64,000 bases of DNA from an alpha proteobacterium HIMB59 (lineage in GTDB: Bacteria > Pseudomonadota > Alphaproteobacteria > HIMB59), in NCBI GenBank assembly GCA_000299115.1, contig CP003801.1, forward strand, positions 1,116,001-1,180,000. The letters are read 5' to 3'. The position numbers and the translations under genes are program-made. Under the pieces are notes generated by a model, which saw only the letters and a list, made by a program, of their open reading frames with translations, was not told the origin of the DNA and searched no databases. This document shows, in pieces, positions 31,466-33,163 of the stretch (its first letter is position 1; each line of letters opens with the position of its first letter).

Positions 31466-32341
31466 CTATATAGTATATAAATCCATCGATGTAATGTTAA
31501 GGTCTAAATTATTAGATTTTGATAAATCAGATACATAATTTGCAACTGTATTTTTTGGGTCAGTTATTAGAGCCTGACCCATTAATGTATTCTCTTTGAT
31601 AAATTTATTAAGCTTACCTTTAACGATTTGTTCTTTTTTATCATCAGGAGTATTTTCTATTTGTTTGAGTATAATATCTTTTTCATCATCTAGAACTTTA
31701 GGATCTATTGAGTCTTCATTTAAACCCATAGGTTTCATTGCTGAAACTTGCATAGCTATTACTTTTAAATCATCTGAAATTTCTGAAGCTTTTTTTGTAT
31801 CATTTGTTGAAATCTCTACAACTGATGCAATTTTGGAGCAAGAAGAATTATACTTATTATGCAAGTAATTAATAAAAATTGAATTCTCGGAATGATACTT
31901 TTTATAAGAAATAATTTGAATATTCTCACCTATCTTAGATATAAGCTCTGTCAAGGCAGAGTTTAAATCTTTTTCATTAAAGGAAATCGAGCCTATATCA
32001 TCAAAATTTCCTTGGGGTTTTATGTTATCTGACTCATGGATAGCTTTTGTTAGCTGATTAGCAAATGATAGGAAATCTTCATTTTTTGCCACAAAATCCG
32101 TTTCACACTTAATTTTACACAAAGAAAAAGAATTTAACGAGGTTTCATGATTATAAAAAGAAATCACACCCTCATTAGTTTCTCTATCCTGTTTTTTTTG
32201 TGCTTTCAAAATACCTTTTTCCCTCAACCATTTTACTGCTGCATCAAGATCATCATTATTCTCAGCGAGAGCTTTTTTGCAATCTAGCATACCACTTCCT
32301 GTGGTCTCTCTAAGTTTTTTGATTAATTCCATACTACTCAT
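31466..32341 (-). CDS. tsf: Elongation factor Ts
   Basis: Nucleotide-exchange factor for EF-Tu. I choose ATG at 32341 (291 aa): GGAG lies 9 nt upstream and the start overlaps the rpsB stop as ATGAGTAG. The ATG at 32374 would extend into rpsB, and ATG 32332 is a weaker alternative. N-terminal UBA-like domain LIKKLRETTGSGMLDCKKAL, the dimer core with KCETDFVAKNEDF (the TDFV motif that contacts EF-Tu), and GQALITDP near the C-terminus are present. Confidence 0.96.
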   Translation of the reverse strand: MSSMELIKKLRETTGSGMLDCKKALAENNDDLDAAVKWLREKGILKAQKKQDRETNEGVISFYNHETSLNSFSLCKIKCETDFVAKNEDFLSFANQLTKAIHESDNIKPQGNFDDIGSISFNEKDLNSALTELISKIGENIQIISYKKYHSENSIFINYLHNKYNSSCSKIASVVEISTNDTKKASEISDDLKVIAMQVSAMKPMGLNEDSIDPKVLDDEKDIILKQIENTPDDKKEQIVKGKLNKFIKENTLMGQALITDPKNTVANYVSDLSKSNNLDLNITSMDLYTI

Positions 32342-33050
32342 TATTCTTTTCTCCATCATCAGAAGTGTTTTCACTGTTGTCAGAAGATAATACTTTTTTG
32401 AAACTATCTAAAATAAATTGAACAGACTTAACGCCATCATCGTTTGCAGGGATAGGATAATCAATTAAATCTGGGTCACAATTTGTATCAACAATTCCTA
32501 TAATTGGAATTCCTAGTTTTTTTGCTTCCAAAACAGCAATATGTTCCCTATTAGTATCGATAATGAAAAGAACATCAGGTGTCGACTTCATTTCGACGAT
32601 ACCGCCTAGGGTTTTTTCTAATCTTATTTTTTTCTTTTCAATATCCGATAATTCTTTTTTAGTAAAAACTGTTTCTTCAGAATTTAAAACGTTTTCATAA
32701 TTATTAAGCGTATTGATTGAATTTTTGACAGTATTCCAATTGGTAATCATTCCACCAAGCCATCTAAAATTAACAAAATAATTTCCTGTTTCCTTTGCTA
32801 TATTTTCAACAATTTCTCCGTGTTGTTTTTTAGTAGAAACAAATAAAAATTTCTTTTTATTTTTAGAGCATTCTAAAGCAAATTTCAGAGCATTTTCTAT
32901 CAATGGTAATGATTTTCTAAGATCTAGAATATGTGTGCCGTTTTTTTCACCATAAATAAATTTTTCCATTTTTGGATTCCAGCGTTTTTTGTTATGACCA
33001 AAATGGGATCCATTTTTAAGTAAGTCTTCTAAAGATATTTCTAAGTTCAT
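32334..33050 (-). CDS. rpsB: 30S ribosomal protein S2
   Basis: Last-assembling 30S protein. 238 aa. Motifs: FGHNKKRWNPKM..FIYGEKNGTHILDL, FVSTKKQ, NFRWLGGMITNW, PDVLFIIDTNREHIAVLEA, IPIIGIVDTNCDPDLIDYPIPANDD. Preceded by a strong Shine-Dalgarno (GGAGG, 33057-33061), a sigma70-like promoter and a structured leader that can sequester that Shine-Dalgarno, suggesting autoregulation of rpsB-tsf. Confidence 0.98.
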   Translation of the reverse strand: MNLEISLEDLLKNGSHFGHNKKRWNPKMEKFIYGEKNGTHILDLRKSLPLIENALKFALECSKNKKKFLFVSTKKQHGEIVENIAKETGNYFVNFRWLGGMITNWNTVKNSINTLNNYENVLNSEETVFTKKELSDIEKKKIRLEKTLGGIVEMKSTPDVLFIIDTNREHIAVLEAKKLGIPIIGIVDTNCDPDLIDYPIPANDDGVKSVQFILDSFKKVLSSDNSENTSDDGEKNNE

Positions 33051-33128
33051 TTATAACCTCCGGTTAATCTTTGATCAGTGTTGTGGAAAACCATATTTTT
33101 GGCACCGGAAAAACACTGGTCTGTTTTT
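33051..33128 (-). promoter_or_regulatory. rpsB leader with possible Shine-Dalgarno-sequestering pseudoknot
   Basis: About 78 nt between the predicted start site and the rpsB ATG. Stem 1: CAGTGTT (33118-33112) pairs perfectly with AACACTG (33082-33076). In the enclosed loop, TCCGGT (33109-33104) pairs perfectly with ACCGGA (33064-33059), which overlaps the GGAGG Shine-Dalgarno; two more G-U pairs extend the stem over the rest of it. The two stems interleave, so the fold is an H-type pseudoknot. A CCA/TGG mini-hairpin (33091-33102) lies inside the loop. Function as an S2 autoregulatory element is inferred. Confidence 0.5.
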
Positions 33129-33134
33129 TTACGT

Positions 33135-33163
33135 TTTATATTAGTTAATATGATTTATTTCAA
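33135..33163 (-). promoter_or_regulatory. Sigma70-like promoter of rpsB-tsf
   Basis: -35 TTGAAA (33163-33158), 17-bp spacer, -10 TATAAA (33140-33135). Transcription would start near 33128. The -35 lies just after the dnaE stop at 33167, separating dnaE-lolD from the translation cluster. Confidence 0.65.

Follow-up and report, generated by a model that had tools for sequence, protein, structure and literature searches.

The leader of the rpsB gene in the alphaproteobacterium HIMB59 can be drawn as a compact pseudoknot, and comparison with related leaders confirms that this knotted RNA is a real, evolutionarily conserved structure. The leader is very probably a shortened member of the known rpsB motif, i.e., an S2 leader of a known kind, rather than a new regulator.

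The rpsB locus and the structure of its leader

We have analyzed a 64,000-nt stretch of DNA (the window, to which all positions refer) that forms part of a single-contig genome of 1,410,127 bp. The gene order on the minus strand is dnaE, a gap of 116 nt, rpsB and then tsf. The rpsB gene (32334-33050, minus strand) encodes ribosomal protein S2 (TIGR01011, E = 1.6e-87), and tsf (31466-32374, minus strand), the downstream gene in a presumed operon, encodes elongation factor Ts (TIGR00116, E = 7.9e-60). The rpsB start codon lies at 33050, 6 nt downstream of a Shine-Dalgarno (SD) sequence GGAGG (33057-33061, minus strand). The genome also encodes S1 (rpsA, E = 7.8e-167), the helper of S2 in Escherichia coli (PMC10931766). 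In the draft genome of one genus-mate, L108 (G013:C27), rpsB is broken by stop codons into two matches, probably as the result of an assembly error.

Just 3′ of the dnaE stop codon is a promoter-like sequence, TTGAAA-17 nt-TATAAA (33135-33163, minus strand), which scores 5/6 and 5/6 against the consensus with a spacing of 17, and which is also found in locus L083. It is absent from the output of a standard promoter scan because the final base of its −10 element is not T. As judged from its sequence, this site would place the start of the leader near 33128, at a run of A nucleotides (33124-33130, minus strand) that is seen immediately 5′ of the first helix in the leaders of the genus, giving a leader of about 78 nt.

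Two helices can be drawn within this 78-nt leader, both on the minus strand. In the core of helix P1, CAGUGUU (33118-33112) pairs with AACACUG (33082-33076), and the helix can be extended past a C⋅A mismatch by two further pairs (33121/33073 and 33120/33074), so that its 5′ and 3′ strands occupy 33112-33121 and 33073-33082. The pseudoknot is formed between UCCGGU in the J2-3 junction (33109-33104) and ACCGGA (33064-33059). These positions of the helices and of the SD had been given in a preliminary description of the leader, and all are correct. A minimal P3 hairpin, GCC/GGU (33090-33103, minus strand), is assigned from the sequence alignment, in which an indel splits its column count over two registers. 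This helix of about 3 bp is missing in the deepest members of the genus (L105, L106 and L108). Across the order P2 has been lost, and P3 is minimal or absent.

The 3′ strand of the pseudoknot overlaps the SD in this lineage, as the preliminary description had proposed in suggesting that the SD is hidden; however, it covers only the GGA of GGAGG, and not the whole sequence. Two additional G-U pairs had been suggested to extend the helix across the last GG of the SD. These pairs lack conservation: most of the 27 genus leaders do not have U at both of the leader positions, and their inner base is unable to pair with G (columns 13-14 of alignment A1). We have consequently rejected the extension.

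Covariation of the two helices

The reality of both stems is established by covariation and not by the statistics of the single sequence. When the leader was subjected to dinucleotide shuffling, 3,102 of 200,000 shuffled sequences (1.6%) contained a perfect 7-bp stem interleaved with one of 6 bp, and among about 9,800 segments of 78 nt taken from this AT-rich region the same geometry is found in 344. If the second stem is required to overlap the SD, the frequency falls to 221 in 100,000 shuffles (0.22%). The z-score for the energy of the nested fold is an unremarkable −0.65. Single-sequence folding and chance geometry thus do not settle whether the knot exceeds chance, and one sequence provides only a modest excess. 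To have called the structure unlikely by chance on this basis was an overstatement, although covariation vindicates both stems.

We compared 27 rpsB leaders from the genus with 21 from a second family within the order and about 100 drawn from the class as a whole. Within the genus (alignment A1, columns 3-12 for the 5′ strand) P1 comprises ten pairs, and 96.3% of its cells are paired. Compensatory, two-sided changes occur in eight of the ten pairs. For the structure as a whole there are 30 two-sided cells in the 27 leaders, compared with 6.5 after shuffling. The sequence of P1 turns over extensively; the window has CAGUGUU/AACACUG, where other members of the genus have GUUAAUAG/CUAUUAAC or GUUAACAG/CUGUUAAC. 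P1 is the only helix recovered by RNAalifold, pseudoknots being outside its representation.

The pseudoknot behaves differently from P1 in the genus, where UCCGGU/ACCGGA is 100% paired and nearly invariant, with four of the six pairs showing no change in the 27 leaders. The role of the SD accounts for the constancy of GGAGG, but not for that of UCCGGU or ACC. Since the bases of the pseudoknot hardly vary within the genus, evidence of covariation must come from other families. In an alignment of 107 alphaproteobacterial leaders that was made without regard to pairing, the core pairs CCGGT/ACCGG are 98.9% paired. Two-sided changes were observed in 16 cells, affecting four of the five pairs; shuffled alignments gave 1.4 such cells on average and never more than 6. 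The compensated variants include CCAGU/ACUGG, CCGAU/AUCGG, CUGGU/ACCAG and UCGGU/ACCGA, and A2, a further alignment of 24 leaders that was trimmed by hand, is in agreement. The preliminary description had proposed examining related rpsB leaders for covariation, and both stems prove to be compensated, P1 within the genus and the pseudoknot across the class. The frequency of the geometry in shuffles and the weak z-score would be compatible with fortuitous complementarity in an AT-rich leader, but this reading is refuted by the strong covariation of both stems, and we assign it a negligible probability.

Relationship to known S2 leaders

The rpsB motif was described from Pelagibacter as a helix P1, variable P2 and P3 helices, and a pseudoknot between J2-3 and a 3′ extension of P1 (Meyer et al., 2009; PMC2704228). 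The motif, which lies directly 5′ of rpsB or tsf and includes the pseudoknot, was reported for the majority of Alphaproteobacteria and for several further groups, with P2 and P3 short or absent in the Pelagibacter copy (PMC2704228). The HIMB59 leader corresponds closely to this published description, which is the form in which Pelagibacter was compared. It lies directly 5′ of rpsB, as do 48 of 48 leaders of the order, with dnaE as the neighboring gene as in Pelagibacter. It has a long P1 of ten pairs in the genus alignment, and a J2-3 junction CCGGU that pairs with ACCGG in the 3′ extension after P1. The reduction of P2 and P3 is allowed by the published motif. The HIMB59 leader differs in that P2 is absent, P3 has at most about 3 bp, the CACAC and GGAGG flanks of P1 are eroded, the pseudoknot strand is merged with the SD, and its score falls under the Rfam threshold. 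The suggestion that this was an undescribed alphaproteobacterial element does not hold, since the motif with its pseudoknot was published (PMC2704228) and is represented in Rfam as RF01815.

In order to avoid circularity we trained a covariance model, R1, exclusively on 24 leaders from outside the order. When the 64-kb window was scanned with cmsearch, the rpsB leader was the sole match at E ≤ 10 (18.1 bits, E = 0.0018). The model also matched all 48 leaders of the order at the right place (E = 6.5e-12 to 0.0037), together with the leader of E. coli. In contrast to the search of the window, a whole-genome search with R1 gave no match, which we ascribe to the prefilter and the larger search space.

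Rfam searches of the whole window and of the leader region returned nothing relevant, and RF01815 had no match in the region at E ≤ 10. None of 60 relatives exceeded the gathering cut-off of 40 bits for RF01815, and neither did any genome of the order. Across the class, RF01815 was found upstream of rpsB in 77 of 114 genomes at E ≤ 0.1, and in 28 of the 114 over the cut-off. In the sister family (G041, G047) there are matches below the cut-off, and these fall at rpsB. Rfam misses the HIMB59 copy because the leader has been shortened and reduced. Given the matches of RF01815 and of t44 (RF00127) to other leaders, the failure of RF01815 reads as limited sensitivity of the model, and the absence of an Rfam match was misleading. 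From its name and position we infer that RF01815 was derived from the motif of Meyer et al. (2009). Both RF00127 (t44) and RF01815 (rpsB) are typed in Rfam as 'Gene; sRNA', and both match rpsB leaders (L217, 287-373; L005, 1394-1487); they look like two models of one cis-acting element.

In E. coli, S2 in excess, helped by S1, represses translation of rpsB-tsf through the leader (PMC10931766), so that the control by S2 invoked in the preliminary description is established. The E. coli leader, which matches t44, serves the same gene in the same layout and is matched by R1. It contains CACACACG...CGUGGAGG, in which P1 is flanked by CACAC and GGAGG and a GGGGU junction is complementary to ACCCC 3′ of P1. 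On sequence grounds we read GGGGU/ACCCC as a compensated form of the same knot. The E. coli leader differs from that of HIMB59 in having a long P3, full flanks, and an SD (GAGG) well downstream of the pseudoknot strand.

The operators of S4 and S15 in E. coli, in which a ribosomal protein acts at its own ribosome-binding site by stabilizing a pseudoknot, had been offered as precedents. They provide a working analogy only, with different proteins, sequences and architectures, and we claim no homology; the S2 leader motif is nearer.

Fusion of the pseudoknot with the SD and a possible mechanism of repression

Throughout the order the 3′ strand of the pseudoknot is fused with the SD (ACCGGAGG), and the knot ends 7-12 nt upstream of the start codon. 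This overlap is kept in all leaders of both families. The CACAC/GGAGG flanks of P1, a candidate contact for S2, have decayed in the genus and are retained in the sister family. In most of the 99 alphaproteobacterial leaders from outside the order the knot lies at least 12 nt before the start codon, usually with a separate SD downstream. The fused arrangement is nevertheless not unique, as the distance from knot to start codon is 11 nt or less in 16 of the 99.

The same minimal, SD-fused knot is present in family f9 of small-genome alphaproteobacteria (L132, L137 and L148); in L137 and L148 the loop is similar too (CUGGUGUUUUC). The resemblance possibly reflects convergent streamlining or shared ancestry. 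Further afield, Firmicutes loci (L023, L034, L072 and others) have CACACG...CGGAGG about 100 nt upstream of rpsB, with a GGUGC loop and a downstream ACCA. These sequence features are consistent with the 3-bp pseudoknot reported for the rpsB motif of Firmicutes (PMC2704228). R1 gave no detection in the three Firmicutes leaders tested.

How might the knotted leader act? At the start of the rpsB-tsf mRNA, P1 closes a loop whose CCGGU sequence pairs with ACCGG located 3′ of P1. S2 in excess, possibly together with S1, would bind and stabilize the knotted leader. The knot would lock the GGA of the SD, leaving the 30S subunit unable to start, and the blocked initiation would lower the synthesis of both S2 and Ts. 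By homology with E. coli, S2 is likely to be the ligand of the HIMB59 leader. Direct occlusion of the SD by S2 is plausible, and would be the simplest mechanism as the stabilized knot would bury GGA. The choice between occlusion as the repressing step and a route independent of the SD, like that of E. coli, is about evenly balanced. The most far-reaching reading is that bacteria of the HIMB59 type, and some other lineages by convergence, have rebuilt an ancient S2 leader as a minimal knot whose pseudoknot strand is the SD; control by S2 would then have moved from the SD-independent mechanism of E. coli to direct SD occlusion. We give this reading slightly less than an even chance.

Alternatively, S2 could act on the same motif as it does in E. 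coli, perhaps through a complex in which S1 or the 30S subunit is trapped on the leader, and the overlap would then be no more than a consequence of intergenic shortening in a streamlined genome. The S2 operator of E. coli includes neither the SD nor the start codon, and a 2024 review calls the mechanism of repression unclear (PMC10931766). SD occlusion is therefore unlikely to be the ancestral mechanism, and it may be incidental in HIMB59. The greater distance and usually separate SD in most leaders outside the order point the same way, and the short 3′ end fits genome streamlining. Against this, the overlap is stable in both families of the order and comparably short distances recur outside it. 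We regard this alternative as a credible but lesser possibility.

It is improbable that the leader is a constitutive element, acting in mRNA stability, 5′-end protection or translation enhancement and not in sensing S2. Conservation demonstrates function and not the identity of a ligand, and the data we found on binding of S2 to its leader are for gammaproteobacteria only. However, the motif is almost strictly associated with rpsB (PMC2704228), and S2 exerts control via the homologous leader in E. coli (PMC10931766).

Lastly, there is one terminator-like site at 33104-33120 on the plus strand, a stem followed by a T-run, but we have rejected a plus-strand terminator as highly improbable because no plus-strand gene terminates at this position (the minus strand carries all three of dnaE, rpsB and tsf) and the compensated stem is found in rpsB leaders class-wide, even where no A-run precedes it. 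The terminator-like appearance is probably a mirror effect, the A-run before P1 being a T-run on the plus strand.

These results show that a regulatory RNA which has been published, but is poorly modelled, occurs in a marine lineage where it was missed by Rfam, and they add class-wide compensatory support for the pseudoknot of the rpsB motif. The minimal knot, because it overlaps the SD, provides a convenient system for studying how S2 represses rpsB, the mechanism of which is unclear in E. coli (PMC10931766).
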